This document shows, piece after piece, positions 2,532 to 24,536 of a stretch of DNA of 33,548 nucleotides. A program made the position numbers and the translations under genes. The stretch lies in assembly GCF_023264895.1 (NCBI RefSeq), contig NZ_JAHFUY010000046.1:1-33548 (forward strand). The letters run 5' to 3'. Within the stretch, counting starts at the first letter, position 1; every line of letters starts with the position of its first letter. This DNA is from Herbiconiux sp. (GTDB taxonomy: Bacteria; Actinomycetota; Actinomycetes; Actinomycetales; Microbacteriaceae). A model generated the notes under the pieces. That model was given only the letters and a program-made list of their open reading frames with translations. It was not told where the DNA came from and did no database searches.

Positions 2532-3233
2532 TCAGCTCGCGAGCACCGCGAGCTCGGCGAGCACCCGCGGGTCGGCCAGCACCCGGAAGTGGCCTCCCGT
2601 CGCGAGCTCCACGTTCTTCGCCCCCGGAAGGGCGCTGCCGCCCGGGATGTGCGGATCGAAGCGGCCGTAGACCGAGACGATCCGCGCGTTGACCGACTGC
2701 CGGTGCGACAGCTCCACGAGGGTGGCATCGCCCGGGCGGAAGATGCGCAGGCTCGGCGCGAGCATGAACCGTGCGTAGACCGAACCGCCGAAGGGCGTCG
2801 CGACCGCGAGCATCGACCGGATGCGCTCGGCCGACGACCCGAGCGACATCGCGTACTTGCCCACCAGCCCGCCCTTGCTGTGCGCCACGAGCACCACGCC
2901 CGAGAGGTCGTGCTCGTCGAGGTAGTCGGCCACGTGCCCGGCGGCATCCGGAACGGGGCGGTTGTTCCAGCGGAGCGGCCCGATCACGTGCACCGGATGC
3001 CCGCGGTCGTGCAGGGCGGCGATGAGCGGCTGCAGGAAGCGCCAGGTCTCGTAGACCCCGGGCACGACCACGATGGGGGCGCGATCGCCGTCGTGGAACG
3101 AGTCCGGATCGGCGCGGCTGAGCACCGAGCGCACCTGCCAGTGCACGGCGTAGGCGTAGTCGCGCGCCCACCAGCCCGCGATCCGGAGCCGGTCGGCGAT
3201 CCCGTGCGGATGCCAGCGTGGGGTGTCGGTCAT
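2532..3233 (-). CDS. Alpha/beta hydrolase (lipase/esterase-like), last gene of catabolic operon
   Basis: The protein is 233 residues from the ATG at 3231-3233, with GAGGAG about nine bases upstream. It has an alpha/beta hydrolase fold: oxyanion region IVVVPGVYETW, nucleophile elbow AHSKGG (Ser119), and a likely acid/base pair in GRFDPHIPGG (Asp193) and TGGHFRV (His215). The K after the nucleophile Ser (HSKGG) resembles bacterial triacylglycerol-lipase/EstA-like enzymes. No signal peptide is seen, so it is probably cytoplasmic. The start lies 13 bp after the stop of the preceding hydrolase gene, consistent with one operon. The substrate is unknown; an ester or lactone linked to the aromatic growth substrate is one possibility. 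Confidence 0.82.
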   Translation of the reverse strand: MTDTPRWHPHGIADRLRIAGWWARDYAYAVHWQVRSVLSRADPDSFHDGDRAPIVVVPGVYETWRFLQPLIAALHDRGHPVHVIGPLRWNNRPVPDAAGHVADYLDEHDLSGVVLVAHSKGGLVGKYAMSLGSSAERIRSMLAVATPFGGSVYARFMLAPSLRIFRPGDATLVELSHRQSVNARIVSVYGRFDPHIPGGSALPGAKNVELATGGHFRVLADPRVLAELAVLAS

Positions 3234-3246
3234 GGGCGTGCTCTCC

Positions 3247-4071
3247 TCACGCGCCCGTCCCCTGTTCCGCGCCCGCCTGCACCCGCCGCACGCCGAGCGA
3301 CAGCACCGCATCGGCGACAGCGCGCGGAGCGGTGTGCTGCACGACGTGGCGGTGGCCCGGCACGACCGCGAGCCTCCCGTCGACGGCCCGGTCGCGGAGA
3401 CGGCGGCACCACGCTATCCCGGCGATCGGATCGAGCCCGCCGCGCACGACGAGGAGCGGGACGGCCAGCTCGGCCACGCGTCGCTCGATCGGGTAGGTGA
3501 GCATGGGCTCGGACTGGCGGAGGAACCAGGCGGGACCGCAGCGCAGGTAGTCGAGGAGCACCACGAGATCGACGTCGGGGGGTTCGACGAGGATGTCGAT
3601 GCCGAGAGCGAGGGCCTGCGCCGGGAGGCTCCGATGCCGGTCGTCGGCGACGGGGCCGACGATCACGACGCCCGTGGCGCGATCCGGTCGCTGCACGGCG
3701 AGCTCGACCACCCACTGCGCCCCCATGGAGTGACCGAGCAGCACGCCGGCCGGAATGCCGAGGAGGTCGAGCGCGGCCCCGAGCGCCCTGGCCATCTCGG
3801 CCACCGAGGGCGAGTGGCCCGGCTTCGGGAGACCGCCGAACCCGGGGAGATCGATGGAGTGCACCTCGCCGTGGAGCGCGAGCTCGTCGTGCAGGCGGGA
3901 GAGGTAGCGGTGCGAGGCGCCGATGCCGTGCACGAGCACGTGCACCGGAGGCGCCGCGCTGCCCACCTGGCCATTCTCGGGCGCCACTGCCGTGCTGAAG
4001 GCGCGGAATTCCATCTCGCCCACCGTCACGCTCCGTTCGAGCGTCGTGGGGGGCTGTCGTCGTTCCGGCAT
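3247..4071 (-). CDS. Alpha/beta-fold hydrolase
   Basis: The protein is 274 residues. The ATG at 4069-4071 is chosen because GAGGAG lies five to six bases upstream; an earlier in-frame start at 4116 lacks this. Motifs are VHVLVHGIGASHRY (oxyanion hole), DLPGFGG, nucleophile elbow GHSMGA (Ser115) and a late GHRHVVQH with the candidate catalytic His (240 or 242). This is the classical layout of C-C or ester hydrolases used in aromatic degradation (MhpC/3-oxoadipate enol-lactonase type), but family membership alone does not give the substrate. A 90-bp gap separates it from the maleylacetate reductase gene, with a small hairpin TCGGGC-N5-GCCCGA (4080-4096) just ahead of its ribosome site. Confidence 0.85.
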   Translation of the reverse strand: MPERRQPPTTLERSVTVGEMEFRAFSTAVAPENGQVGSAAPPVHVLVHGIGASHRYLSRLHDELALHGEVHSIDLPGFGGLPKPGHSPSVAEMARALGAALDLLGIPAGVLLGHSMGAQWVVELAVQRPDRATGVVIVGPVADDRHRSLPAQALALGIDILVEPPDVDLVVLLDYLRCGPAWFLRQSEPMLTYPIERRVAELAVPLLVVRGGLDPIAGIAWCRRLRDRAVDGRLAVVPGHRHVVQHTAPRAVADAVLSLGVRRVQAGAEQGTGA

Positions 4072-4161
4072 TCTGCTCCTCGGGCTGTGGGCCCGAACCA
4101 GGCCCCCTGCCAGCATCTGCTGTTTCGCCCGGCACCGCTCGTTCCGGCGGGACCGGGCTCG

Positions 4162-5217
4162 TCAGCTGATGCTGCGGCCCTCCAGCGCCGCCTGCAGGAT
4201 GCCCTCGAGGTCGCGTTCGTGCACCGGCCGCGGATTGCTCGAGGGCACGAGCGGCAGGATGAGCCCGGCGCTCTCGGGGATGCTCTCGGCCCGGTAGCCC
4301 ACGTCGGCGAGCGCGCGCGTGGCGGGGATCGAGGCGTAGAGCGAGTCGAGGCCCTCGACCGCGCTCGAGGCACCGAGCGCTCGGGCGATCCGCTCCTCCG
4401 CCTCGGCCGAGGCCCCCACGTTGAACGCGAGCACCTGCGGCAGCACCGCGGAATGGGTCTGCGCGTGCGGCAGGTCGTAGGCACCGCCGAGCACGTGGCA
4501 GATCTTGTGGTGGAGGCCCGAGCCCGCCGAGGCGAAGGCGACCGCCGAGACGTATGCCCCGTAGAGCATGCGCTCGCGCGCGGGCACGTCGCCCAGGTCG
4601 GCGACGATCGCGGGGAGCGCCGCGGCGACCTCGCGGATGCCCTCCTCGGCGAGCGCCCGGTTGAGCGGATCCGAGTTCGGCGCCCACATCGAGTCGATGC
4701 AGTGGGCGATGGCGTTGAGACCCGAGGCCACGGAGAGGTCGACGGGCAGGCTCAGCGTGAGCGCGGCGTCGTAGATCACGACGGCCGGGAGCACGACGTC
4801 GTCGACCCCCGTGGTCTTGCGGGAGTCGGTCGTGAGGCCCCAGACGTTCGTGGCCTCGGATCCGGCGTAGGTGGTGGGCACGGCCACGATCGGCAGCCGC
4901 TCGGTGAGCGCGATGGCCTTCGCGAGCCCCGTGGTCGAGCCCCCGCCCACCGACACCACGAGGTCGATGCCGGCCTCGCGCGCGGCGGCCCGCGCCCGCT
5001 CGGCGTGCGCGATGGGCACGTGCGGCGCCACGTCGTCCCAGTGCAGCGCCACCTCGATGCCGGCGGCGATGCTGCGGGCGAGCTCGGCCTCGGAGGGCGC
5101 CGCGATCACCATGACGGCCCCGGCACCCCTCTCGGCGACCTCGGCGGCGAGCGCTGCGGCGGCGTCGCCGGAACCGAAGCGCACGCGCTGGGGCAGGGTG
5201 CGGTGGTCGAACTTCAT
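4162..5217 (-). CDS. Maleylacetate reductase (iron-alcohol-dehydrogenase family)
   Basis: The protein is 351 residues, the normal size for maleylacetate reductases, which reduce maleylacetate to 3-oxoadipate with NAD(P)H. Nucleotide-binding signature GGGSTTGLAKA (about 91-101) is followed by VPTTYAGSEATNVWG (113-127), HCIDSMWAPNSDP (172-184), SGLHHKICHVLGG (233-245) and PHAQTHSAVLP (250-260). These are typical of the MAR branch rather than metal-dependent butanol dehydrogenases. The ATG (5215-5217) overlaps the upstream hydrolase stop (ATGA). With the ring-cleaving dioxygenase, CoA-transferase and thiolase of the same operon it completes a route to 3-oxoadipyl-CoA. It most resembles the PcpE/LinF/TftE group. 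Confidence 0.92.
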   Translation of the reverse strand: MKFDHRTLPQRVRFGSGDAAAALAAEVAERGAGAVMVIAAPSEAELARSIAAGIEVALHWDDVAPHVPIAHAERARAAAREAGIDLVVSVGGGSTTGLAKAIALTERLPIVAVPTTYAGSEATNVWGLTTDSRKTTGVDDVVLPAVVIYDAALTLSLPVDLSVASGLNAIAHCIDSMWAPNSDPLNRALAEEGIREVAAALPAIVADLGDVPARERMLYGAYVSAVAFASAGSGLHHKICHVLGGAYDLPHAQTHSAVLPQVLAFNVGASAEAEERIARALGASSAVEGLDSLYASIPATRALADVGYRAESIPESAGLILPLVPSSNPRPVHERDLEGILQAALEGRSIS

Positions 5218-5876
5218 GGTGTCTCCTCGTGATCGCGCAGCCGGTTCAGGAACACGCGGGCGTCGGCCGCCGCCCGCTCGGTGATGCCGTGCTCGTCGCC
5301 CGGCTCGACGAGCACGTCGGCCTGGGCTCCGGCGAGCGCGAGCAGCCTGGTCGTGTCGGCGACCCGGAAGGCGGGCACCCAGGGGTCGTGGTCGATCGAG
5401 CGCAGCAGCACGGGCACACCCCGGCGGAGGGTGCCCACGCGCCGGGCGACGGTCTCGGACTCGAGCGGTTCGGCGCCGACGTAGCCGCCCGTGAAGAGCA
5501 CGGCGCCGACCACGGGCACGTTCCGCGTGAGCAGGAAGTGCGACAGCGTGCACGCCCCCTGCGAGAAGCCGAGCAGCGCCACGCGGGCGAAGCCGGCCTC
5601 GTGCGCCGCGGCCACGCTCGCCTCGACCACGTCCAGCGCCCGTTCGAGGTGCTCGGCGTTCTCGGGCGCGGGGTCGAGGAAGGGATGCGGATACCAGGAG
5701 TTGCCCACGGCCTCCGGCGCGAACCAGCGCAGGCCCGCCACGCCGAGCCGTTCCGACAGGCCGCGCACGAACGGCACGTCCTGGGTGCGGCCGTGCAGCC
5801 CCACCACGGCGAGCGCCTGCGGGTCGCTCGCCTCGGCGTCGCCCCAGACCTGCGGTTCCACGGTGGTCTCCGTCAT
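5214..5876 (-). CDS. MhqD-like phospholipase/carboxylesterase-family hydrolase
   Basis: The protein is 220 residues from the ATG at 5874-5876. The catalytic triad can be placed: GFSQGA (Ser105), RSIDHDPWVP (Asp162 or Asp164) and PGDEHGI (His196). LAVVGLHGRTQD supplies the oxyanion region. This is the carboxylesterase-2 fold of Bacillus MhqD, which is encoded beside ring-cleaving dioxygenases of the MhqO type. Here it directly follows the dioxygenase gene (72-bp gap) and overlaps the next gene by 4 bp. That pairing suggests it processes the ring-cleavage product or removes quinone-derived esters. The exact reaction is unproven even in the Bacillus case. Start alternatives a few codons away exist. 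Confidence 0.85.
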   Translation of the reverse strand: MTETTVEPQVWGDAEASDPQALAVVGLHGRTQDVPFVRGLSERLGVAGLRWFAPEAVGNSWYPHPFLDPAPENAEHLERALDVVEASVAAAHEAGFARVALLGFSQGACTLSHFLLTRNVPVVGAVLFTGGYVGAEPLESETVARRVGTLRRGVPVLLRSIDHDPWVPAFRVADTTRLLALAGAQADVLVEPGDEHGITERAAADARVFLNRLRDHEETP

Positions 5877-5948
5877 CCGATCATCCCTTCCTCGTCACCC
5901 GTCGTCACACGATCCGATCAGTGCCCGTCGTGCTCAGTGCCGTCGCGC

Positions 5949-6908
5949 TCAGTCCTCGTCGCGCAGCGGCTCGAGGCGGGCCATGATCGACTCGCGCTCG
6001 TGCTCGAAGAACGGCGGCAGCATGAAGGCGCGGCCGAGCTCCTCGGGCGACTCGTCGCAGTCCCAGCCGCCCTCGTTGTGCGTCACGGCCAGCTCGAACA
6101 GCGCGCCACCCGGGGTGCGCACGTAGTGCGACTTGAAGTAGGTGCGGTCCTTGAGCTCCGAGATGTCGGTGTAGCCGGCGCCCTCGATGTCGAACTTCAC
6201 CTCGTTCTGGTTCTCGAGGTTGTCGAGGTTCCAGGCGAAGTGGTGGTACGCGCCGGAGCCGTAGCGCCAGGTGCCCTGCTCGTCGGTGCGGTTGCCGGTG
6301 AGCTCCACGAAGTTGCCGACGTCGGCGTTGCCCACGCGGTAACGGGCGCGGTCGCCCTCCTCCTCGACCTCGCTCGAGGCGAAGAACGCCTCCTTGCCGA
6401 AGTCGACCATGCGGTCCTGGTCGAACACGTGGATGCCCACGCCGTAGATGCCGTGGATCGCGTACTCGATGCCCACGCCGTTCTTCGTGTAGCCCTCACG
6501 CGGGTCGTTCTCGACCTCGATCAGCACGTACTCGATGCCGGAGGGGTGGCGGAGGTTCAGTCGGCGGCCGCCGAACACGTCCTCGAAGCTGTTCTCGACA
6601 CCGTGCTCGGTGAGCCGCTTCGACCAGAACTCGAGCGATCCGGTGGGCACCGAGAGCAGCACCTCACGCGCCTGGTTGGTGCCGCGGATGCCGTAGAGCC
6701 CCACCTGCGCCCACGGGAACGTGGTGATCACGGCCGAGGGGTCTCCGCCGGCGTTCGAGTAGTAGAGGTGGTACACCGGCGTGCCGCCGTCGTAGAGCAC
6801 CGTCTTCTTGATGAAACGCAGGCCGAGGACCCGCGTGTGGAAGTCGACATCCTCCTGCGCATGCCCTACCGAGAGGGTCACGTGGTGGGAACCGGCGACA
6901 TACGTCAT
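5949..6908 (-). CDS. VOC-fold ring-cleaving dioxygenase, PcpA/LinE/MhqO type (hydroquinone cleavage)
   Basis: The protein is 319 residues from an ATG preceded by AAGGAGATAACA, one of the best ribosome sites in the window. It has two glyoxalase/VOC modules. The Fe(II) ligands known for PcpA (His11, His227, Glu276) align as His9, His223 and Glu272 with near-identical spacing. The PcpA second-shell residues His10, Thr13, Arg259 and Tyr266 match His8, Thr11, Arg255 and Tyr262. The C-terminal MLPPFFEHERESI resembles MhqO. Such enzymes open para-hydroquinones next to one hydroxyl. Neighbouring maleylacetate reductase supports a product at or near maleylacetate. Substituted hydroquinone or hydroxyhydroquinone is possible; the actual substrate is inferred. 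Confidence 0.9.
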   Translation of the reverse strand: MTYVAGSHHVTLSVGHAQEDVDFHTRVLGLRFIKKTVLYDGGTPVYHLYYSNAGGDPSAVITTFPWAQVGLYGIRGTNQAREVLLSVPTGSLEFWSKRLTEHGVENSFEDVFGGRRLNLRHPSGIEYVLIEVENDPREGYTKNGVGIEYAIHGIYGVGIHVFDQDRMVDFGKEAFFASSEVEEEGDRARYRVGNADVGNFVELTGNRTDEQGTWRYGSGAYHHFAWNLDNLENQNEVKFDIEGAGYTDISELKDRTYFKSHYVRTPGGALFELAVTHNEGGWDCDESPEELGRAFMLPPFFEHERESIMARLEPLRDED

Positions 6909-6950
6909 TGTTATCTCCTTGTTGGTCGTCTACTGCGGATGCCCGATGCT

Positions 6951-7769
6951 TTACTCCGTCGGGGCGGAGGGTTCTCTGTAGACCGCGTTCCGGTCGACCT
7001 CGCGGTAGACCGTCGGCGCGACGGGGTGCTCGATCTCCTCGGCCAGGTGACCGAGGAGGCCGGCGGTGCGGGCGAGCAGCGCGAAGCCGCGCAGGAGCTC
7101 GACCGGCAGACCGGCGTCGGCGAGAGCGGCTCCGGCGACGCCGGCTCCGTTCAGCGGAAGGGTGCGGCCGATGATGTCGGGGTGCACGCGGCCGATGGCC
7201 TCGAACAGCTCGAGGTAGGGGCCCTTGACCCCGGCCTCGGCGGCGATGCCGATGATCACCGGGGTGCGGGGGTCGCCCTGCTTGTGCACCGGATGGCCGA
7301 GCCCCGGCACCGTGCCGCCGGTCGCGGCCGTCGCGGTGATCGCGGCGCGGGCCGCGTCGTCCCAGTCGGCCGCGGTGAAGGCGGTCGTGTCGCCGAGGGT
7401 CGACAGCACGCCCTGGAGGTAGAGCCCGGTGTCCTCGGTCACGCCGAGGAAGCGGGATCCGCCGCCCAGGAGGCCCGCCGCGAGGGCTCCCTGCAGCGAG
7501 TCGGGGGCGCTGTAGTAGGTGAGGCGCGCGGCGATCGCGGTGGGGGTGAAGCCGTGGTCGGCGAGCGAGACGAGCACCGCCTCGAACACGCGCAGCTGGC
7601 CGGGTGTCGGGCGGCGGCGGGCCACCAGGAGGTAGGCGAGCTCGCCGAAGCCGATCTGCCCGATGAGCTCGCCGGCCAGGTCGTGGCCGAGGAGGGAGAT
7701 GGAGTCGGCGTCGCTCGTGCCGATGCTCGTGGGGTACTCGGGGCGGTCGTGGTCGGGGCGGTCAGGCAC
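6951..7769 (-). CDS. Citrate-synthase-fold citryl-CoA lyase-like protein
   Basis: The protein is 272 residues, far shorter than citrate synthase (about 370-430) and similar to the lyase module of ATP-citrate lyase. The start is GTG (7767-7769) behind GAGGAGG; it overlaps the end of the CaiB gene by 8 bp. The citrate-synthase signature GLGHPVHKQGDPR holds the conserved active-site His (159). The ISLLGHDLAGELIGQIGFGE and PLNGAGVAGAALADAG segments fit the family. Such short proteins are usually named citryl-CoA lyases and would cleave a 3-hydroxy-3-carboxyacyl-CoA to an acyl-CoA and a 2-oxoacid, or run in reverse. Its direct coupling to a CaiB-type CoA-transferase suggests that partner makes its CoA thioester. 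Its place in an aromatic operon is unusual. Confidence 0.75.
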   Translation of the reverse strand: MPDRPDHDRPEYPTSIGTSDADSISLLGHDLAGELIGQIGFGELAYLLVARRRPTPGQLRVFEAVLVSLADHGFTPTAIAARLTYYSAPDSLQGALAAGLLGGGSRFLGVTEDTGLYLQGVLSTLGDTTAFTAADWDDAARAAITATAATGGTVPGLGHPVHKQGDPRTPVIIGIAAEAGVKGPYLELFEAIGRVHPDIIGRTLPLNGAGVAGAALADAGLPVELLRGFALLARTAGLLGHLAEEIEHPVAPTVYREVDRNAVYREPSAPTE

Positions 7770-8997
7770 GGGGGGCCTCCTCCTCGGTCAGCCAGGCGCG
7801 CACGGCGTCGTCGTGCTCGCCGAGAGCGGGCGGCGGGGCCGCGTGGCGAGCCGGGGTGCGGGAGAACGCGATCGGGTTGCGGATGACGGGCACCGCGTGC
7901 TCGCCGTCGCCCACGGTCACCACCGGATCGAGACCGAGGCGCTCGGCGAGCGCGATCCCGCCGTCGATCGTGTTGATGGGCCCGCACGGCACGCCCGCCT
8001 CGGTGAGCCGCTCGAACCAGTCGGCGACGGTGCGCTCGGCGAGGGCCCCGACGAGCAGCGGCCGGAGCTCGGCACGGTTGCGGTTGCGGTCCTCGGTGCG
8101 GGCGAAACGGGGGTCGTCGGCGAGGGCAGGGAGCCCGAGGGCGGTGGCGAGCCGGCCGAACTGGCCGTCGTTGGCGGCCACGACGATGAGCTCGCCATCC
8201 TGGGTCGGCAGCGGCTCGTAGGGGAACAGGCTCGGATGCGCGTTGCCCATGCGGAACGGCACGGTTCCGGCAGCGACCACGGTGGAGCTGTGGTTGGCCA
8301 TGGCGGCGAGGGCGGTCGAGAGGAGGTTGACCTCGATGTGCTGACCCTCGCCGTGTTTGCCGTCACCGTGCTCTCGGTCGTCGGTGCTGTCGCGGTGGCG
8401 GAGGGCGGCGAGGACGCCGACGACCGCGTTCAGGCCGGTCATCACGTCGAACACCGAGACGCCGCTGCGGTAGGCGGGGCCGTCGGCGTCGCCCGTGAGG
8501 CTCATGAGGCCCGAGGCCGCCTGCACGATGAGGTCGTAGCCGGGCAGCGCGGCGCCGCCCGCCGTGCCGAAGCCGCTGATGGAGGCGTAGACGACAGCGG
8601 GGTTGGTGGCGGCGACGGAGTCGTAGTCGAGGCCGAAGCGGGCGAGACCGCCCGGCCGGAAGTTCTCGATCACCACGTCGGCCCGCCGCGCGAGCTCCTG
8701 CGCCAGGGCGCGGTCGGCCTCGTCGCCGAAGTCGAGCACCACCGAGCTCTTGCCGCGGTTGACGCCGAGGTAGTAGGTCGAGACGCCGTCGCGCTCGGGC
8801 GGGGCCCAGGAGCGGGTCTCGTCGCCGGCCGGGCTCTCGACCTTCACCACGCGGGCGCCGAGGTCGGCGAGCAGCTGGGTGGCGTAGGGGCCTGCGAGCA
8901 CGCGCGAGAAGTCGGCGACCAGGATGCCGTCGAGAGCCCCGGGCGTGGGGGCGCCGCCCTCCGCGGGCAGGGCGGGCCGGCCGTCCTGCGCCGTCAC
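7762..8997 (-). CDS. CaiB/BaiF (class III) CoA-transferase
   Basis: The protein is 411 residues. A GTG at 8995-8997 follows GGGGAGGCGACG and overlaps the IclR stop (GTGA). Family hallmarks are LVADFSRVLAGPYATQLLAD near residue 30, ENFRPGGLARFGLD (111-124) and the catalytic aspartate in LPGYDLIVQAASG (Asp155). The large domain ends with the GVPCGPINT signature. Class III enzymes move CoA between carboxylic acids through an aspartyl-CoA thioester and often act on unusual acids. Because the operon already has a class I 3-oxoacid CoA-transferase, this one likely serves a second acid, and the overlapping lyase gene suggests a citryl-like acid. A His/Asp/Gly-rich insert (TDDREHGDGKHGEGQH) lies about residues 203-218. 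Confidence 0.9.
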   Translation of the reverse strand: MTAQDGRPALPAEGGAPTPGALDGILVADFSRVLAGPYATQLLADLGARVVKVESPAGDETRSWAPPERDGVSTYYLGVNRGKSSVVLDFGDEADRALAQELARRADVVIENFRPGGLARFGLDYDSVAATNPAVVYASISGFGTAGGAALPGYDLIVQAASGLMSLTGDADGPAYRSGVSVFDVMTGLNAVVGVLAALRHRDSTDDREHGDGKHGEGQHIEVNLLSTALAAMANHSSTVVAAGTVPFRMGNAHPSLFPYEPLPTQDGELIVVAANDGQFGRLATALGLPALADDPRFARTEDRNRNRAELRPLLVGALAERTVADWFERLTEAGVPCGPINTIDGGIALAERLGLDPVVTVGDGEHAVPVIRNPIAFSRTPARHAAPPPALGEHDDAVRAWLTEEEAPRA

Positions 8998-9857
8998 CGT
9001 CGCCTCCCCAGTCGCGTGAGCTCGAGGTCGGCCCCGATGGCGTCGGCCGCCGCCACGAGGGCGGGGGCGAAGTCGGCCTCGATCCGCTCGATCGTGGCCA
9101 CGCCCACCGTGGTCGAGACGTTGATGGCGGCCACCACCCGGCCGTTCCGGCGCACCGGAGCGGCGATCGAGCGGAGCCCCACCTCGAGCTCCTGGTCGAC
9201 GGCGGCCCAGCCGCGCTCCCGCACGGCGGCGATCTCGGTGCGCAGCACCTCGCGATCCGTGAGCGTCTTCGCCGTGAGGCCCACGGGCTGCACGGCGTCG
9301 AGGAGCCGGTCGAGCTCGGGCTCGGGGAGGCCCGCGAGCAGCACGCGGCCCATCGAGGTGGCGTAGGCGGGGAAGCGCGTGCCGACGGTGATGGCCACGG
9401 CCATGATGCGCCGCACGGGCACGCGGGCCACGTAGACGATGTCGCCGCCGTCGAGCACCGAGGCCGAGGTCGACTCGCCGAGCTCGTGCGCGAGCTGCTC
9501 GAGGTGCGGGAGCGCGACCTCGGGCAGGGTGAGCGCGCTGAGATAGCCGAAGCCGAGCTCGAGCACGCGCGGCGTGAGCGAGAACTGCTTGCCGTCGGTG
9601 CGCACGTAGCCGAGCTCCACGAGGGTGAGGAGGAAGCGGCGGGCGGTGGCGCGCGTGAGGCCGGTGCCGCGGGCGACGTCGCTGAGCGTCTGCACGGGCA
9701 GGTCGGCGGTGAAGGCCTTGATCACCTCGAGGCCGCGCGCGAGCGACTGCACGTACTGCTCCCCCGGCACGCGGGCGCCCGGGTCGCCCGCACGATCGGC
9801 GGGATCGGCAGCACCGGCAGCGGCACCGGCGCCGGCGGCGGTCTCCACGGCGCTCAT
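8994..9857 (-). CDS. IclR-family regulator (PcaR/PobR-like)
   Basis: The protein is 287 residues. An Ala/Gly/Asp-rich leader of about 30 residues precedes the typical start YVQSLARGLEVIKAF. A winged helix follows: LSDVARGTGLTRATARRFLLTLVELGYV. The C-terminal IclR effector domain includes GESTSASVLDGGDIVYVARV and GLRSIAAPVRRNGRVVAAINVS. Regulators of this branch control protocatechuate and 3-oxoadipate genes and respond to the pathway acid. It is embedded in the operon, with ATGA overlap to the thiolase and GTGA overlap to the CaiB gene, so it is made with its targets. The palindrome at 12552-12566 is the obvious candidate operator. Confidence 0.92.
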   Translation of the reverse strand: MSAVETAAGAGAAAGAADPADRAGDPGARVPGEQYVQSLARGLEVIKAFTADLPVQTLSDVARGTGLTRATARRFLLTLVELGYVRTDGKQFSLTPRVLELGFGYLSALTLPEVALPHLEQLAHELGESTSASVLDGGDIVYVARVPVRRIMAVAITVGTRFPAYATSMGRVLLAGLPEPELDRLLDAVQPVGLTAKTLTDREVLRTEIAAVRERGWAAVDQELEVGLRSIAAPVRRNGRVVAAINVSTTVGVATIERIEADFAPALVAAADAIGADLELTRLGRRR

Positions 9858-11026
9858 CGCTCGAGCACCACGGCGAGGCCCTGGCCCACGCCGATGCAGA
9901 TGGCGGCCACGGCGACCCCGCCGCCCCGCCGCGCGAGCTCGTGGGCGGCGTGACCGATGATCCGGCCGCCCGATGCGCCGAGCGGGTGCCCGATCGCGAT
10001 CGCGCCACCGTGGATGTTGACCTTCGCCGGATCGAGCTCGGGCCAGAGCTTCAGGCACGCCAGCGACTGCGCCGCGAAGGCCTCGTTGAGCTCCACCACG
10101 TCGACGTCGGCCCAGGTCTTCCCGGCGTTCGCGAGTGCCCGGTTCGCGGCCTCGACGGGCCCGATGCCGAACATGTCCGGGTCGACCGCCGCGACCCCGC
10201 GCCCGATGATGCGGGCGAGCGGCTCGGCGTCGATGGGGGCGTCCTCGGCCCCCACGATCACCATCGAGGCGCCGTCGTTCAGCGGCGACGCGTTGCCGGC
10301 CGTGATGGTGCCCTCCGGCCGGAACGCCGGCTTGAGCCCCGCGAGCGACTCCACGGTCGAGTCGGGGCGGATGCCCTCGTCGCGTGCGAGGTCGACCCCG
10401 GGCACGGCCACCATCTCGCCGTCGTACATCCCGGCGTCCCAGGCCGCTGCGGCCGCCACATGGCTCGCCGCCGCGAACGCGTCCTGCTCCTCGCGGGTGA
10501 TGCCGTGCTTCTCGGCCAGCAGCTCGTTCGACTCGCCGAGCGAGATCGTCCACTCCTTCGGCATCCGCTTGTTCACGAGTCGCCAGCCCAGCGTGGTCGA
10601 GTGCAGCGTCTCGTTGCCGGCCGGGTAGCCGCGCTCGGGCTTCTGCAGCACCCACGGGGCCCGGCTCATCGACTCCACGCCGCCCGCCAGCACGAGGCGG
10701 GAGTCGCCGGACTCGATCGCACGGCTCGCATCCATGACGGCCTGCAGGCTCGATCCGCAGAGCCGGTTGACGGTCACGCCGGGCACCGAGGTGGGGAGCC
10801 CGGCGAGCAGCACAGCCATGCGCGCGACGTCGCGGTTGTCCTCGCCGGCCTGGTTCGCCGCTCCGGCCACGACGTCGTCGATGAGTGCGGGGTCGAGCTC
10901 CGGATGCCGGTCGAGCACACCGCGCACCACCGTGGCGAGCAGGTCGTCGGGCCGCACGCCCGCCAGGGCCTTGCCGAACCGGCCGAACGGCGTGCGCACG
11001 GCGTCGTAGACGAAACTCGCGGTCAT
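9854..11026 (-). CDS. pcaF: 3-oxoadipyl-CoA thiolase-type acetyl-CoA acyltransferase
   Basis: The protein is 390 residues from the ATG at 11024-11026, overlapping the CoA-transferase B stop (ATGA). It has a complete thiolase active site: Cys90 in NRLCGSS, the NEAFAAQS block, His347 in GGAIAIGHPLGASG and Cys377 in CIGVGQG, essentially the same spacing as biosynthetic thiolase. The internal segment HSTTLGWRLVNKRMP matches the DTT-x-GWR-x-VN segment of PcaF/PaaJ 3-oxoadipyl-CoA thiolases. The reaction would be 3-oxoadipyl-CoA plus CoA to succinyl-CoA plus acetyl-CoA, the last step of the pathway. The specific substrate is inferred from context; the class is certain. Confidence 0.92.
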   Translation of the reverse strand: MTASFVYDAVRTPFGRFGKALAGVRPDDLLATVVRGVLDRHPELDPALIDDVVAGAANQAGEDNRDVARMAVLLAGLPTSVPGVTVNRLCGSSLQAVMDASRAIESGDSRLVLAGGVESMSRAPWVLQKPERGYPAGNETLHSTTLGWRLVNKRMPKEWTISLGESNELLAEKHGITREEQDAFAAASHVAAAAAWDAGMYDGEMVAVPGVDLARDEGIRPDSTVESLAGLKPAFRPEGTITAGNASPLNDGASMVIVGAEDAPIDAEPLARIIGRGVAAVDPDMFGIGPVEAANRALANAGKTWADVDVVELNEAFAAQSLACLKLWPELDPAKVNIHGGAIAIGHPLGASGGRIIGHAAHELARRGGGVAVAAICIGVGQGLAVVLER

Positions 11027-11808
11027 GATCGCATCCCCTTGGTGTCGTCGCTGCCGCGGTGGCCCTCGCCGTCGTGGCCGGTCGCATCCTGAAGCTCCAG
11101 GCCGGTGAGCCCACGAAGCTCGTCGAGGGTCGTGTCGCCGAAGACCTCGGTCACGGCGAGCCCGGCGGCGGTCACGTCGAACACCGCCCGGTCGGTGTAG
11201 ACCCGGCTCACGCAGGCGACGCCGGTGAGCGGATAGGTGCACGCGGCGACGAGCTTCGACCCGCCGTCGCGGGTGAGCAGATCCGTCATCACCCAGACGC
11301 TCTTGGCGCCGATCGCGAGGTCCATCGCCCCGCCGACCGCCGGGATCGCCCCGGGAGCGCCGGTGTGCCAGTTCGCGAGGTCGCCGCGTTCGGAGACCTG
11401 GAAGGCGCCGAGCACGCAGATGTCCAGGTGCCCGCCGCGCATCATGCCGAACGAGTCGGCGTGATGGAAGTAGGAGGCGCCCGGAAGCTCGGTCACGGGC
11501 TGCTTGCCGGCGTTCATGAGGTCGGGGTCGACGAGGCCGGGCTCGGGAGCCGGGCCCATGCCGAGCATGCCGTTCTCGGTGTGCAGGATGATCTCGAGCC
11601 CCGCGGGAAGGGCGTCGGCGATGAGGGTGGGGGCGCCGATGCCGAGGTTCACGATCGCGCCCTCGGGGATGTCCTGGGCGATGCGCGCCGCCAGGGCACG
11701 CCGGTCGAGGCCGGGTCGGTCAGGGGCGGGCCGGTCGAGGCCGGGCCGGTCAGGGGTGGGCCGGTCGAGGCCGGGCCCATCGAGGGCGCCGCGGTCGAGG
11801 CCGCTCAT
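11023..11808 (-). CDS. pcaJ: 3-oxoacid CoA-transferase, subunit B (3-oxoadipate type)
   Basis: The protein is 261 residues from the ATG at 11806-11808, overlapping the subunit A stop (ATGA). The class I CoA-transferase core runs from ARIAQDIPEGAIVNLGIGAP. The catalytic glutamate is in HTENGMLGMGP (Glu78), followed by HADSFGMMRGGHLD and DLLTRDGGSKLV. The N-terminus is extended by about 30 residues made of LDRPxPDRPG repeats that the family lacks; their DNA is a 30-bp tandem array. Translation could instead begin inside the array, but no alternative start with a better ribosome site is evident. With subunit A it would move CoA from succinyl-CoA to 3-oxoadipate. Confidence 0.9.
   Translation of the reverse strand: MSGLDRGALDGPGLDRPTPDRPGLDRPAPDRPGLDRRALAARIAQDIPEGAIVNLGIGAPTLIADALPAGLEIILHTENGMLGMGPAPEPGLVDPDLMNAGKQPVTELPGASYFHHADSFGMMRGGHLDICVLGAFQVSERGDLANWHTGAPGAIPAVGGAMDLAIGAKSVWVMTDLLTRDGGSKLVAACTYPLTGVACVSRVYTDRAVFDVTAAGLAVTEVFGDTTLDELRGLTGLELQDATGHDGEGHRGSDDTKGMRS
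11701..11805 (-). repeat. 30-bp tandem repeats at the 5' end of the CoA-transferase B gene
   Basis: Units begin at 11701, 11731 and 11761, with a partial fourth at 11791. Each opens with CCGGTCGAGGCCGGG (or a close variant) and ends with a TCAGGGGYGGG-like block. The first two units differ at few positions and the third is diverged at its end. The period is a multiple of three, so each unit adds ten residues (PGLDRPxPDR) to the protein N-terminus. Copy-number change would lengthen or shorten the protein without a frameshift. Confidence 0.85.
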
Positions 11809-12536
11809 GCGGGTGCCCCCACGAACTCGCCGTCGCGGAGCCAGGGCCGCTCCCCCACCTCGACCACGCGGTCGACGAAGATGCCCGGGGTCACGACGGC
11901 CTCGGGGTCGAGGGCGCCCAGCTCCACGACCTCGTCGACCTGCACGACGGTGGTGCGTGCCGCAGCCGCCATGAGCGGACCGAAGTTGCGGGCGGTGCGG
12001 CGGTAGACGAGGTTGCCCCAGCGGTCGGCGCGGTAGGCCGAGATGAGGGCGACGTCGGCGCGCAGCGGGTATTCGAGGATGTAGTCGCGGCCGTCGATGG
12101 TGCGCGCCTCCTTGCCCTCGGCCACCGTGGTGCCGACGCCGGTGGGGGTGAAGAACGCGCCGATGCCGGCTCCGGCGGCGCGGATGCGTTCGGCGAGGTT
12201 GCCCTGCGGCACGAGCTCGAGCTCCACCTCGCCGGCGCGGTAGGCGGCGTCGAAGGCGTGCGAGTCGGCCTGGCGGGGGAAGGAGCACACGACGCGCCGA
12301 ACCCGGCCTGCGGTGATGAGTGCCGCGATGCCGGTGTCGCCGTTGCCGGCGTTGTTGCTCACGATCGTGAGGTCGGAGGCGCCCTGGGCGATGAGGGCGT
12401 CGATGAGCTCCACCGGCTGGCCGGCGGCACCGAAGCCGCCGATCATGACGGTCGCGCCGTCGCCCACGTCGGCGATCGCCTCGCTCGCATCGGCTCTCAG
12501 CTTTGAGATCACAGCCACCTCGAAAGTGTTCGTCAT
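11805..12536 (-). CDS. pcaI: 3-oxoacid CoA-transferase, subunit A (3-oxoadipate type)
   Basis: The protein is 243 residues from the ATG at 12534-12536. An ATG 18 bases earlier (12554) would leave a leader of only a few bases and lies in the palindrome, so the later start is preferred; no strong ribosome site is visible for either. Family features are DGATVMIGGFGAAGQPVEL near residue 30, TIVSNNAGNGDTGIAAL, and GAFFTPTGVGTTVAEGKE. The C-terminal block GVTPGIFVDRVV-type appears as VVTPGIFVDRVVEV. It is the first gene of the operon and pairs with subunit B (4-bp overlap). PcaI/CatI-type activity is the likely role given the maleylacetate reductase and thiolase. Confidence 0.9.
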   Translation of the reverse strand: MTNTFEVAVISKLRADASEAIADVGDGATVMIGGFGAAGQPVELIDALIAQGASDLTIVSNNAGNGDTGIAALITAGRVRRVVCSFPRQADSHAFDAAYRAGEVELELVPQGNLAERIRAAGAGIGAFFTPTGVGTTVAEGKEARTIDGRDYILEYPLRADVALISAYRADRWGNLVYRRTARNFGPLMAAAARTTVVQVDEVVELGALDPEAVVTPGIFVDRVVEVGERPWLRDGEFVGAPA

Positions 12537-12551
12537 GCGAACACTCGTACG

Positions 12552-12572
12552 CATGTTGACAACATGGTTATA
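12552..12572 (-). promoter_or_regulatory. Operon promoter -10 and palindromic operator
   Basis: CATGTTG-a-CAACATG at 12552-12566 is a perfect 7-bp inverted repeat. Directly upstream on the minus strand is TATAAC (12567-12572), a good -10 box, with a loose TCTTGA about 16 bp further up. The transcription start would fall at about 12559-12560, in the palindrome, leaving a leader of some 24 bases to the preferred ATG. Such placement suits a repressor. The IclR protein of the operon is the natural candidate ligand. The sequence symmetry is observed; binding is inferred. Confidence 0.65.
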
Positions 12573-13032: not shown

Positions 13033-13047
13033 CACCTGGCTCAGGTG
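13033..13047 (-). terminator. Small hairpin overlapping the GntR-1 stop codon
   Basis: CACCTG-gct-CAGGTG forms a 6-bp stem with a 3-base loop at the 3' end of GntR-1. It sits between two convergent genes. There is no T-tract, so it is at best a weak terminator or an mRNA 3'-end stabiliser. Confidence 0.3.
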
Positions 13048-13826
13048 GCGGCGATGTTCACCTCGAGCGGCACGATCTCGGTGAGCACCCAGGTCTCGTA
13101 GTAGTCGAAGCGGGTCGAGTCCTTCGCCCACGACAACGACCCCACCCGCAGGACGGGTTCGTCTCTGCCGACCCCGAGGGCGGCGGCGATGTCTGGCGGG
13201 GTGCGCAGGGCATGGATGACTCGCCGTGCGCCAGCCGTCACGAAGCCCGCGCCACGCAGCGCCTGGTTCACCGATCCGGAACCGTCCAGGACGTCGTCGG
13301 CGCGGGAGACGACGCGTCCGCTCGCTCCCGGGAACCAGTTCGTGCTGAACATGGCGGATCGCCCCTCGAGCGAGCGCACCCGCACGAGCTCGAAGACCTC
13401 CTCCTCCGGCCCCACCTGGAGGAGCTGGGCCACGCGCTCGGGCGGAACGGCGAACCGGGCACCGAGCACCGTCGTCTCGATCCCGACCTGTCCGTGCTGA
13501 AGCTGGGACTCCAGGAACCCCTGCGGATCCTGGATGGTCCAGCCCGAGGATTCCGTCGGGGTCGTCGCGAACACGCCCCGCCGCGGCACCCGGCGCGCGT
13601 AGCCCTCGGACTCGAGCTTCTGGAACGTCTGCCGCACGGTGGCACGGGAGAGGCCGAACTCGCGGCACAGCTCGAGCTCGCTCGGGAGCCGCTCGCCCTC
13701 GGCGATCCGGCCGCCCACCACCTGCTCCCGGAGGATCCCGAACAGCTGCTCGTAGTACGGGACCTCAGAATTCCGCTCGATCACCCGAATCAACGCACCC
13801 TCGCTCGCCTGCTCCAGACCCGTCAT
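13041..13826 (-). CDS. GntR/UTRA (HutC-type) regulator, copy 1
   Basis: The protein is 261 residues from the ATG at 13824-13826; an in-frame TTG nine codons earlier would lie in the proposed operator. VPYYEQLFGILREQV leads into the GntR winged helix (LPSELELCREFGLSRATVRQ, residues 47-66). A UTRA effector domain follows (about 105-255: FELVRVRSLEG, FSTNWFPG, FDYYETWVLTEIVPLEV). UTRA domains sense phosphosugars and related metabolites. It is last in the minus-strand sugar operon. It is strikingly similar to copy 2 at 23721-24512, roughly two-thirds identical along the whole length, so the two regulators bracket the island. The upstream element at 13841-13853 suggests autoregulation. Confidence 0.93.
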   Translation of the reverse strand: MTGLEQASEGALIRVIERNSEVPYYEQLFGILREQVVGGRIAEGERLPSELELCREFGLSRATVRQTFQKLESEGYARRVPRRGVFATTPTESSGWTIQDPQGFLESQLQHGQVGIETTVLGARFAVPPERVAQLLQVGPEEEVFELVRVRSLEGRSAMFSTNWFPGASGRVVSRADDVLDGSGSVNQALRGAGFVTAGARRVIHALRTPPDIAAALGVGRDEPVLRVGSLSWAKDSTRFDYYETWVLTEIVPLEVNIAAT

Positions 13827-13840
13827 GGTAGGCCGTATGG

Positions 13841-13853
13841 ACAGACTAGACAA
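13841..13853. promoter_or_regulatory. Candidate GntR/UTRA operator upstream of GntR-1
   Basis: ACAGACTAGACAA (TTGTCTAGTCTGT on the minus strand) lies 15 bases ahead of the GntR-1 start. It matches ACAGACTCGACAA at 18414-18426 in the divergent sugar promoter at 12 of 13 positions. HutC-type operators often contain a GTCTAG-like core. A shared element in front of the regulator and in front of the cluster's divergent genes is what an autoregulated operator would look like. Confidence 0.5.
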
Positions 13854-13888
13854 CAGTGGTCGCCCGAATGCAGACGTGATGGCGGGGA

Positions 13889-14449
13889 CTACTCGAAGTT
13901 GCGGTGGCGGGCGACGAGGTCTTCGAACCGAGCACCGGTGCGTCGCACGAGCATGAGGTAGAGCACGTCCCAGAAGATCCAGAGCGACTGCTCGAACAGG
14001 CTGCCCATCGCCTGGATCGTGGGGACGACGTCGCCCTCGGCGCCGTAGGTGTGCGCCGGGATCGTGAGCACGATGTCGGCCAGCCTGGCGGTGGGGCCGT
14101 CCGGGATCGCGGTGGCGACGAGCAGGGTCGCACCGGTCTTCTTGACCTGTTCGGCGATGTAGTGCAGGTGCGGGATGTTCGCGGGCCCGGTGGGCATGAT
14201 GAACAGGTCGTCGGCGGTGACCGCCGGCGTGGTGTCGTCCCAGCCCCAGTGCACGGTCTTGCCGAAATGGGTCAGCCGCATCGCGAACGCCTTGGAGCCG
14301 AGGCCCTCCCGCCCGATACCGAGCACGAAGATGCGCTGGTGCTTCTCGAGCGCGTCGAGCGCCGCCTCGATGCTGTCGAGCGGCACGCGGCGGAACACCT
14401 CGCCCAGCTCCTCGACGACGGTCGCACTGATCTCGCGGAACTCAGACAT
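13889..14449 (-). CDS. HxlB-like SIS-domain protein (6-phospho-3-hexuloisomerase family)
   Basis: The protein is 186 residues from an ATG behind GAGGAAGGACAG. Length and sequence follow 6-phospho-3-hexuloisomerase: IFVLGIGREGLGSKAFAMRL (40-59), His61, and the C-terminal PTIQAMGSLFEQSL (143-156) with Glu153 and the ending ARHRNFE. However, the loop that in HxlB reads like GSGSGETK and holds the sugar phosphate is replaced here by PTGPANIPH (86-94), without serines. A changed substrate or a non-phosphorylated ligand is possible. It follows the ABC permease gene by 88 bp in the same operon. Isomerisation of a ketose phosphate is the default inference, with the lost loop as a caution. Confidence 0.85.
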   Translation of the reverse strand: MSEFREISATVVEELGEVFRRVPLDSIEAALDALEKHQRIFVLGIGREGLGSKAFAMRLTHFGKTVHWGWDDTTPAVTADDLFIMPTGPANIPHLHYIAEQVKKTGATLLVATAIPDGPTARLADIVLTIPAHTYGAEGDVVPTIQAMGSLFEQSLWIFWDVLYLMLVRRTGARFEDLVARHRNFE

Positions 14450-14537
14450 CCGCTGTCCTTCCTCTTGCAGCCTCGCGGCTCGGGTTGTTCTGTGACGATG
14501 GCATGGCCGGGGCCACGACCGGGGCCCGGGGCCGGCT

Positions 14538-15569
14538 TCAGCGTAGGCCGGGCTTGGCCCCGAAGCGGCCCACCAGCAGGGCGATCAGGATCACGGCACC
14601 GTAGACGGCATTGATCCAGAAGGTCGGGACGCCGGCCAGGGTGAGCACGTTGGTGAGGGTTCCGAGCAGCAGCACGCCCATCAGGGCTCCGATGATGCGC
14701 CCCTGCCCTCCGGTGAGCTGCACCCCGCCGATCACGGCGGCGGCCAGCGCACTGAAGATCATGTTCTCGCCCATGCCGCTCGTGACCGAGGCGAGACGGC
14801 CGGCGAGCATGAGGCCGGCGAACGCCGCGAGGGTGCTGGCGGCCACGAAGGCCGTGATCAGCACGAAGTCGACGCGGATGCCCGCGGCCTTGGCGGCGTC
14901 GGCGTTGCCGCCGATGGCGTAGAGCGCGCGCCCCCACGAGGTGTAGCGCAGCACCAGCCCGGCGATCACGAACAGGATGGCCGTGACCCAGATGGCCGCG
15001 GGAACCCCGGCCCACCGCGCGGAGCCGATGTAGCGGAAGGCCTCGGGGAGGCCGGCCAGCGTCTTGCCCTGACTGATGCCGAGGGTGATGCCGCGCAGGA
15101 GGATGAGCATCGCGAGCGTCACGATGAACGGATCGAGCTTCACCTTCACGACCATGAAGCCGTTGAAGAGCCCGATGCCGGCGCCGATCACGAGGGTGAT
15201 CAGGATGGCCAGCAGCGGATCGATGTCGGTTCCGAGACCGCCCACGGCGGCGGGGATGACGAGCCAGGCGGCCACCATCGGCGCGAGCCCCACGGTCGAC
15301 TCGAGCGAGATGTCGAGCTTTCCGGTGAGCAGGATCAGGGTCAGGCCGATCACCACGATGCCGAGCTCGGCCGACTGGCGGAGGATCAGGGTGAGGTTGG
15401 CGGCCGAGAGGAAGGCCGGGCTGACCAGAGCACCCACGACGATCACGATGGCGAGGCCCGGCAGCACGCTGAGCTCACGCACGTTCTGCACGACGGCGCC
15501 GAACGCGCGGTTCTTCGGCGCGGAGGCACTTCTGGGCTTGGCGGATGCGGGGGCGGTGGTGTTCGTCAT
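14538..15569 (-). CDS. Sugar ABC transporter permease (RbsC-type)
   Basis: The protein is 343 residues. The ATG at 15567-15569 is chosen because GGAGTGA lies at the right distance; a GTG at 15578 overlapping the ATPase stop is an alternative. The sequence is highly hydrophobic with about eight to ten membrane helices. It carries the RbsC/AraH family hallmarks: LTLILLTGKLDISLES, FNGFMVVKVKLDPFIVTLAML, YAIGGNADAAKAAGI (cytoplasmic coupling loop) and GGQGRIIGALMGVLLLGTL. A basic N-terminus of about 25 residues is cytoplasmic. It forms the channel for the sugar bound by the lipoprotein at 17175-18248, powered by the fused ATPase upstream. Confidence 0.95.
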   Translation of the reverse strand: MTNTTAPASAKPRSASAPKNRAFGAVVQNVRELSVLPGLAIVIVVGALVSPAFLSAANLTLILRQSAELGIVVIGLTLILLTGKLDISLESTVGLAPMVAAWLVIPAAVGGLGTDIDPLLAILITLVIGAGIGLFNGFMVVKVKLDPFIVTLAMLILLRGITLGISQGKTLAGLPEAFRYIGSARWAGVPAAIWVTAILFVIAGLVLRYTSWGRALYAIGGNADAAKAAGIRVDFVLITAFVAASTLAAFAGLMLAGRLASVTSGMGENMIFSALAAAVIGGVQLTGGQGRIIGALMGVLLLGTLTNVLTLAGVPTFWINAVYGAVILIALLVGRFGAKPGLR

Positions 15570-15574
15570 GGTCT

Positions 15575-17083: not shown

Positions 17084-17136
17084 GACGTCTCCGTCTCGGA
17101 TCTCTGGTCCGGTCGTTCGGCTTGCGGGTGATCGGG

Positions 17137-17166
17137 GTCCGGGTGCCGCCTGGGCGGCACCCGGAC
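17137..17166 (-). other. Strong intercistronic stem-loop after the binding-protein gene
   Basis: GTCCGGGTGCCGCC-tg-GGCGGCACCCGGAC is a perfect 14-bp inverted repeat. It begins eight bases past the stop codon of the binding-protein gene (17175) and lies ahead of the ATPase gene (17083). No T-run follows. Stem-loops at this place in sugar ABC operons protect the binding-protein mRNA end or cause partial termination, giving more binding protein than ATPase and permease. Confidence 0.8.
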
Positions 17167-17174
17167 GCTCGGGG

Positions 17175-18248: not shown

Positions 18249-18328
18249 TGCAGACTTCCTCTCTGAAGTGGCAGGACTACGGATGTCCCGGCGGTGCGCG
18301 GGGCTCTCCGGACTATTTGGTACGGCTT

Positions 18329-18368
18329 GTACGTACGGAACATACATGGCGTCCATCCGGTTTGTAAA
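18329..18368 (-). promoter_or_regulatory. Promoter of the binding-protein operon with GTACGTAC operator
   Basis: On the minus strand TTTACA (18363-18368) and TATGTT (18339-18344) are separated by 18 bp. The predicted transcription start is near 18332, inside the palindrome GTACGTAC (18329-18336). A repressor on this site would block initiation. Confidence 0.6.
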
Positions 18369-18405
18369 GCCGTCGCGATCCGGACTCGAATCCACCCAAG
18401 ATGAA

Positions 18406-18449
18406 TTGTACGTACAGACTCGACAATACGTACGTTTTCGCATTATGGT
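18406..18449 (+). promoter_or_regulatory. Aldolase/kinase operon promoter with paired operators
   Basis: TCGACA (18420-18425) and TATGGT (18444-18449) form a likely promoter with 18-bp spacing. The perfect palindrome TGTACGTACA (18407-18416) and ACGTACGT (18428-18435) lie on either side of the -35 box, with centres 20 bp apart, two helix turns. The element ACAGACTCGACAA (18414-18426), shared with the GntR-1 upstream region, covers the -35 box. Tight control by one or both GntR/UTRA proteins is the likely meaning. The remaining part of the 248-bp gap shows no other clear element. Confidence 0.6.
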
Positions 18450-18496
18450 GACTCCGCGAACAGCGCCGCGCTGTTTCTTCACTGAGGAGTGTTCAC

Positions 18497-19336: not shown

Positions 19337-19346
19337 GAGCCCGCCG

Positions 19347-22267: not shown

Positions 22268-22323
22268 CGACGACCCGTTCCGTGCGGGCCGATTAGGATC
22301 TCTACGGTCGGGCATCCTGGGAG

Positions 22324-24512: not shown

Positions 24513-24536
24513 CGGTCTCCTCGGAAGCGGAAGCAC

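Follow-up and report, generated by a model that had tools for sequence, protein, structure and literature searches.

The window is the whole of contig C25 (33,548 bases) of a Herbiconiux genome. It carries an operon of 11 genes, which includes a PcpA-type ring-cleaving dioxygenase, an adjacent MhqD-like serine hydrolase of family PF02230, a maleylacetate reductase (MAR), a two-subunit coenzyme A (CoA) transferase and a thiolase. The operon is real and conserved, and is of a known general kind in which hydroquinone ring opening leads into the 3-oxoadipate route. It is a variant of that kind, with an esterase occupying the place of the dehydrogenase. We judge the chance to be close to even that this operon provides ring opening and the lower pathway for an alkoxy-hydroquinone, most likely 2-methoxyhydroquinone, with the methoxy group being deduced from chemistry.

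The deduction is as follows. A cut between C1-OH and C2-X should leave C1 as a carboxylate and C2 carrying X. Consequently, the C2 product would be an aldehyde when X is hydrogen, a self-hydrolysing acyl halide when it is a halogen, an acid when it is OH, a methyl ester when it is OCH3 and a beta-diketone when it is alkyl. The methyl ester is favoured because, of the two products that need a hydrolase (ester and beta-diketone), it alone leads on to maleylacetate and 3-oxoadipate, the compounds that the downstream enzymes handle. Methoxyhydroquinone is the best-supported of the substrate options.

In the proposed pathway, the dioxygenase would cut between C1-OH and C2-OCH3, so that a methyl ester, instead of an aldehyde, is formed at C2. 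The adjacent PF02230 hydrolase would free methanol from it; the product would be maleylacetate if this happens ahead of the reduction step and 3-oxoadipate if it follows that step. The double bond would be reduced by MAR, whose family assignment is well supported, and CoA-transferase subunits A and B with the thiolase would yield succinyl-CoA and acetyl-CoA, a step in which the families, rather than the exact substrate, are well supported. The ring hydroxylase supplying the hydroquinone would be encoded elsewhere in the genome, and this MAR is probably shared with a hydroxyquinol route whose genes are on contig C80. Such a scheme would require neither an aldehyde dehydrogenase (ALDH) nor an O-demethylase.

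The dioxygenase, hydrolase and reductase

Comparisons were made across 84 loci, comprising the best 80 of 339 relatives of the dioxygenase (L055–L134, from a profile search of genome contigs with a 7-row alignment), the window itself and three plasmid loci (L046–L048). The set includes near-duplicates (L097–L099 are from one genome, and two entries are from Kocuria dechangensis), and contig ends truncate some of the loci. The window genome is 3.95 Mb in 168 contigs and is 92% complete, which makes absences from it provisional.

The nearest solved structure to the window dioxygenase is PcpA (4huz), with similarity over the full length (residues 3–310, E 2.4e-65), compared with E 2.3e-47 for MhqO (3oaj). 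Residues H9, H223 and E272 align with what we take to be the metal ligands of PcpA. H9 is kept in 84/84 loci, and H223 and E272 in 83/84 with one row gapped, so that two histidines and one carboxylate are present. The ligands of this dioxygenase type have been given as two His and one Asp (PMC3727088); the aligned acid in the window protein is Glu. Similarity and metal ligands together identify the protein as a predicted PcpA/LinE-type hydroquinone 1,2-dioxygenase. Among the best 80 of 339 relatives, the closest is that of Herbiconiux oxytropis (95% identity), while identity to the LinE-type protein of plasmid pMI1 is 39–40%. The structure model of the window dioxygenase is only fair (mean predicted local distance difference test score, pLDDT, 77.1), and one of the five models is clearly better.

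The hydrolase passes the Pfam cut-off for PF02230 and gives a good AlphaFold model (mean pLDDT 88.7). Its catalytic triad is conserved (S105 in 65/65, D164 in 65/65 and H196 in 64/65), and W61-Y62 is invariant in the 65. Here, the nucleophile is serine; dienelactone hydrolases use cysteine in its place.

The MAR signature motif LHHKLCHTLGG (PMC5741723) reads LHHKICHVLGG in the window protein. With L or M in first position, it is kept by 29 of the 30 MARs near the dioxygenase, the window's counted, and the one at L132 is without it. The LSTPEQ cofactor motif was not found in the window protein, which has IAAPSE at that place in an alignment to 3jzd made by eye. This MAR is the sole close match in its genome, with the next at 36% (E 6e-29).

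The neighbours of the dioxygenase were scored in two ways. For the hydrolase, a hidden Markov model was built from the hydrolase cluster of the same set (E < 1e-30). The other families were searched by blastp at 1e-20, each with a single query except P450, which had two, and Pfam was applied to representatives only. The hydrolase lies within 2 kb of the dioxygenase in 55/84 loci and within 5 kb in 65/84, with no locus added at 5–10 kb; all 66 matches are less than 5 kb away. Once L096, L098 and L099 are dropped, 63/81 rows have it. Across 183 kb of sequence from elsewhere in this genome, partly from overlapping loci, the same model had no match at 1e-3 and the ALDH query matched only itself. 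Around the dioxygenase, an ALDH is found within 5 kb in 2/84 loci and within 10 kb in 4/84. A missing ALDH looks like the rule, and the layout of a putative esterase beside the dioxygenase recurs in many relatives.

Further support came from MAR, since the hydrolase is present in 30/30 loci that have MAR, whereas MAR is present in 0/19 of those that lack the hydrolase. These are related loci and not 30 independent cases, but the co-occurrence ties the hydrolase to the maleylacetate route. The dioxygenase, hydrolase and MAR also occur together on two Rhizobiales plasmids. Other families within 10 kb are the PF08028 flavin monooxygenase (29/84), the CaiB family (15/84), the lyase (14/84) and the CoA-transferase and thiolase (4/84).

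The initial annotation of this DNA had recognised that plain hydroquinone would call for a dehydrogenase that is missing here, and had offered two ways for the gene set to work without one, namely maleylacetate formed directly from hydroxyhydroquinone, or hydrolysis of a substituted product by one of three hydrolases. The neighbour counts speak for the second, and the first is disfavoured by a separate intradiol enzyme discussed below. As to the three hydrolases, it is the MhqD-like one that is widely conserved; the operon's alpha/beta hydrolase and lipase-like hydrolase are rare (3/84 and 2/84 within 10 kb).

Two actinobacterial loci are close to that of the window. Plasmid pACHL02 of Pseudarthrobacter chlorophenolicus A6 (L048) likewise has the dioxygenase (66–67%), hydrolase, MAR, thiolase and CoA-transferase A/B; unlike the window, it has a flavin adenine dinucleotide (FAD) monooxygenase directly upstream and is without CaiB, lyase and IclR. 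Arthrobacter nitrophenolicus SJCon (L090) also combines the dioxygenase, hydrolase, MAR, thiolase and CoA-transferase A/B. Its dioxygenase row is identical to that of pACHL02, which suggests recent plasmid transfer.

Candidate substrates

A methyl ester route is known from Aspergillus niger. There, MhdA converts methoxyhydroquinone into 4-hydroxy-6-methoxy-6-oxohexa-2,4-dienoic acid, a methyl ester, and 4-oxo-monomethyl adipate accumulates when OmeA, an esterase encoded next to it, is lost (PMC8336404), indicating that reduction precedes the esterase in this fungus. As in the window, a dioxygenase gene lies beside an esterase gene, and the fungal route is described with a methyl ester product, a 3-oxoadipate end and a proposed MAR. 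In contrast, the window dioxygenase is of the PF00903/PcpA type and not of the homogentisate dioxygenase family, and its lower pathway is in the same operon. MhdA is similar to homogentisate dioxygenases (PMC12388069), and the bacterial route would therefore have arisen by convergence. In addition, a two-subunit bacterial hydroquinone dioxygenase has been reported to accept 2-methoxyhydroquinone at 59% of the hydroquinone rate (PMC3222310).

We put forward tentatively, and at somewhat under an even chance, a broader proposal. A methoxyhydroquinone pathway would be widespread in Actinobacteria and would have converged on the fungal solution: ring opening by a PcpA-type dioxygenase would convert an aryl methyl ether to a methyl ester, from which the paired esterase releases methanol. 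Lignin-derived methoxyl groups would thus be lost without an O-demethylase, and Firmicutes would have, in MhqE-MhqD, a related pair that serves detoxification. If true, this gives a chemical reason for the dioxygenase–esterase pair of many Actinobacteria, predicts bacterial stripping of methoxyl from lignin-type aromatics by hydrolysis after ring opening, and makes the unsettled chemistry of MhqE/MhqD directly testable. An analogous bacterial methoxyhydroquinone pathway is said to have been described already (PMC13094099, citing Shettigar 2020), and the route is not claimed here as previously unreported. A literature search for 3-methoxyphenol with methoxyhydroquinone yielded nothing on bacterial catabolism.

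Several observations weigh against methoxyhydroquinone as the substrate. The CaiB-type CoA-transferase and the lyase of the operon have no part in the scheme. Only 30/84 loci have MAR less than 10 kb from the dioxygenase, and both loci with an ALDH within 5 kb also carry the hydrolase. One ALDH is confirmed in the genome (L148), with ALDHs not having been searched for genome-wide. The hydrolase is missing from 19/84 loci, including five from Mycobacterium and several from Pseudonocardia. Of these, L082, L089, L096 and L123 are short or at a contig end. Genuine exceptions to the pairing are several Pseudonocardia loci and four from Mycobacterium for which a longer stretch is available; in Mycobacterium L131, for example, the neighbours include a P450-type gene, an O-methyltransferase, a berberine-bridge-type oxidase and another alpha/beta hydrolase. 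A weak hydrolase match is also next door in 10/23 distant MhqO-like loci (L023–L045, 1.5 kb flanks), which implies that the dioxygenase–hydrolase pair is older than this pathway and not specific to the route. The pair may simply be a reused detoxification pair. Finally, SJCon, whose dioxygenase row equals that of pACHL02, reportedly cleaves chlorohydroquinone to maleylacetate (PMC3563742, PMC3368897; the responsible gene is not named in these accounts), a conversion that needs no esterase.

The alternative that survives best, although unlikely, is an alkyl-hydroquinone route or quinone detoxification as in MhqE-MhqD of Bacillus and Staphylococcus, in which cleavage beside the alkyl carbon would give a beta-diketone to be split by the hydrolase. 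The window hydrolase is indeed PF02230, and mhqRED, which is induced by methylhydroquinone, holds the same pair of dioxygenase and phospholipase/carboxylesterase (PMC6798810). However, the products of this route need no MAR, CoA-transferase or thiolase, yet these share the operon here and adjoin the pair on pACHL02. The mhqRED operon as described in the same source is without all three, its role is quinone resistance, and the function of the hydrolase is merely suggested. Moreover, a hydroquinone dioxygenase of another type is reported to cut methylhydroquinone beside C-H and not beside C-CH3 (PMC3222310).

Rather unlikely is a halo-hydroquinone route as in PcpA and LinE of pentachlorophenol and lindane degradation, where cleavage beside the halogen would yield an acyl halide that hydrolyses itself to maleylacetate, leaving the hydrolase as an accessory. 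These enzymes share the dioxygenase family and metal-site residues with the window, PcpA is the nearest solved structure, and MAR follows in their pathway; the LinE-type plasmid locus has a MAR nearby. SJCon, whose cluster shares the dioxygenase, hydrolase, MAR, thiolase and CoA-transferase, degrades 2-chloro-4-nitrophenol via chlorohydroquinone to maleylacetate according to the accounts cited above. The known substrates of PcpA and LinE are chlorinated and require no esterase step. Against this route, it gives no reason for the most frequent neighbour among the families tested to be an intact serine hydrolase. At the LinE-type locus the hydrolase match is only weak (E 7e-10) and lies 2.7 kb from the dioxygenase, and no dehalogenase family was matched in the window.

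Plain hydroquinone is an improbable substrate. Its classical route passes through 4-hydroxymuconic semialdehyde (PMC3727088), which would here be oxidised by a dehydrogenase encoded elsewhere, and the genome has at least one ALDH (L148). Unlike the classical pathway, the window cluster contains no ALDH gene and, as described above, the comparison loci rarely have one close by; the hydrolase would also have no role.

Hydroxyhydroquinone opened directly to maleylacetate would suit MAR and the lower pathway, but is highly improbable and was rejected: a two-domain intradiol dioxygenase is encoded separately in the genome, next to an FAD hydroxylase on C80, 16/84 loci hold both this kind of intradiol enzyme and the PcpA-type dioxygenase, and no hydrolase is needed. 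Resorcinol/hydroxyquinol clusters of the graABCD type share MAR with the operon; unlike it, they open the ring by an intradiol dioxygenase and need no esterase. In Agrobacterium LN-1 (L049), an intradiol dioxygenase, monooxygenase and flavin reductase of the types in those clusters are in one cluster with this dioxygenase and hydrolase.

Upstream steps and the CaiB–lyase pair

Returning to methoxyhydroquinone, candidates for the hydroxylase that would supply it lie on other contigs. Many of the 29 loci with a PF08028 flavin monooxygenase also have an alpha/beta hydrolase or flavin reductase, and in this genome such an alpha/beta hydrolase is paired with such a monooxygenase on contig C22 (L162: 8791-11163), with best matches of 61% and 63%. 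A second, more distant monooxygenase is on contig C5. Of the two C80 genes (L147:11496-14266), the FAD hydroxylase matches at 75% one near this dioxygenase in an Arthrobacter, the intradiol dioxygenase has a match of 72%, and the nearest solved structure to the hydroxylase is 2-hydroxybiphenyl 3-monooxygenase. Apart from the intradiol enzyme, the only PF00775 match in the genome is partial, on contig C43. The C80 intradiol dioxygenase probably acts on hydroxyquinol, judging by the neighbours of its relatives, where MAR accompanies it; no MAR was found near the C80 pair in the 20 kb inspected. Because this probable hydroxyquinol dioxygenase is without a MAR, and the genome has no close match to MAR other than that of the window, a role for the operon as a common lower pathway is probable. 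Plain hydroxyquinol is unlikely as the substrate of the operon itself. CoA-transferase A has three paralogues in the genome (76, 77 and 54%), so that step is not unique to the operon.

In Herbiconiux oxytropis, a P450 lies about 2.9 kb upstream of the operon; a P450 supply step was rejected, as the best that the window genome offers for this P450 is a weak and partial match. The suggestion in the initial annotation that the genes form a self-sufficient set is doubtful, with flavin hydroxylases and an ALDH lying elsewhere in the genome. The look-up it had proposed for a nearby hydroxylase or ALDH found none on the window contig, the hydroxylases being on other contigs and the ALDH at L148.

In Streptomyces, Rhodococcus, Kribbella and Gordonia, a second gene set flanks the dioxygenase (L046, L047, L067, L069, L073, L076, L079 and L088). 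It comprises, in varying parts, an FAD monooxygenase, a short-chain dehydrogenase/reductase, 3-hydroxyisobutyrate-dehydrogenase-like, carboxymuconolactone-decarboxylase-like and metallo-lactamase proteins and GntR. Relatives of some of these genes are on contig C79 of the window genome (L149:6733-15999), apart from the dioxygenase. Four Actinomycetospora loci (L100, L104, L111 and L120) have a cobalamin-independent methionine-synthase-like gene near the dioxygenase (PF01717 in L111), which could be a pathway methyl transferase.

The CaiB and lyase genes are in the middle of the operon and overlap by 8 bp; the lyase is the sole match of its kind in the genome. The pair accompanies the dioxygenase in 14/81 rows, from Herbiconiux, Microbacterium, Nesterenkonia, Actinomycetospora and Pseudonocardia, and MAR is present in 8 of these 14 loci. 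On a quick tree of the dioxygenase, supported branches force at least four changes in the distribution of the pair; the placement of two outlying plasmid rows, L052 and L053, is unsure owing to long branches. A LigB-type dioxygenase is beside the pair in six Nesterenkonia loci and one from Pseudonocardia (L074, L075, L077, L078, L080, L134 and L102), and a PF01979 amidohydrolase in Nesterenkonia and Actinomycetospora. A link to a LigB-type enzyme was discarded for the window, whose genome gave no LigB match at E 0.001 in a search made without a positive control. Routes via citramalate, 3-hydroxy-3-methylglutarate (HMG) and a citrate-like ring-opening product were weighed on paper and none was preferable; a literature search for a known pathway with this pair yielded nothing relevant. 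As a guess held with low confidence, succinyl-CoA made by the thiolase might activate a tertiary hydroxy acid, which the lyase would split into acetyl-CoA and a 2-oxoacid.

Layout of the operon and its surroundings

The operon extends on the minus strand from 2532 to 12536 (ATG start) or 12575 (GTG start), with the genes in the order of Table 1. Families were assigned from NCBIfam and Pfam matches and from searches of solved structures (PDB). These matches confirm the 11-gene, same-strand operon and the families named in the initial annotation. The identical set in identical order is found in Herbiconiux oxytropis (L055), showing that the arrangement is not due to chance. As had also been stated, there is no hydroxylase or ALDH, with neither family matched by the 11 genes or by the other called genes of the window, where the view of the neighbourhood ends at the contig ends. 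The description of the junctions as mostly 4-bp overlaps was half right: this holds for 5 of the 10, and the rest are one 8-bp overlap and four gaps of 42, 72, 45 and 13 bp, with the 45-bp gap becoming 132 bp should the tenth gene start at 4029. For the thiolase, "3-oxoadipyl-CoA type" was apt wording, as the top models are 3-oxoadipyl-CoA thiolases but the score is under the equivalog cut-off for PcaF (441 versus 597 bits, TIGR02430).

Table 1. Genes of the operon: product, position in the window, strand and basis of assignment
3-oxoacid CoA-transferase subunit A	11805..12536	-	TIGR02429, 369 bits vs cut-off 128.5; alternative GTG start 12575
3-oxoacid CoA-transferase subunit B	11023..11808	-	TIGR02428, 277 bits vs cut-off 243.55; PF01144
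Thiolase, 3-oxoadipyl-CoA type	9854..11026	-	Top NCBIfam models 3-oxoadipyl-CoA thiolase, under cut-offs; TIGR01930 over cut-off
IclR regulator, PcaR/PcaU/PobR family	8994..9857	-	TIGR02431, 319 bits vs cut-off 284.75
CaiB-type (class III) CoA-transferase	7762..8997	-	PF02515; top NCBIfam succinate-glutarate CoA-transferase, under cut-off; PDB matches include succinate-HMG CoA-transferase
Citryl-CoA-lyase-like protein, citrate synthase family	6951..7769	-	NF004868, 274.1 vs 193 bits; PF00285; PDB 6hxp citryl-CoA lyase
PcpA-type ring-cleaving dioxygenase	5949..6908	-	4huz PcpA, E 2.4e-65; H9, H223, E272 kept in close relatives
MhqD-like serine hydrolase, proposed ester hydrolase of ring-opening product	5214..5876	-	PF02230, 30.0 vs 23 bits; triad S105/D164/H196
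Maleylacetate reductase (MAR), Fe-ADH family	4162..5217	-	PDB maleylacetate reductases 3w5s, 3hl0; top match 3iv7; LHHKICHVLGG motif
Alpha/beta hydrolase	3247..4116 (start may be 4029)	-	PF00561, PF12697, PF12146
Lipase-like alpha/beta hydrolase	2532..3233	-	Only a sub-threshold PGAP1-like PF07819 match

Two further features of the window were observed. A sugar-use cluster spans 13041-24536 and consists of GntR, SIS, an ABC transporter, a class II aldolase, three FGGY kinases and a second GntR. It separates the operon from a DUF445 gene whose counterpart in Herbiconiux oxytropis L055 immediately precedes the operon, and it looks like an insertion relative to that locus. In CoA-transferase subunit B, a repetitive N-terminal extension (11700-11808, repeats of approximately GLDRPxPDRP) precedes the part matched by the family model.

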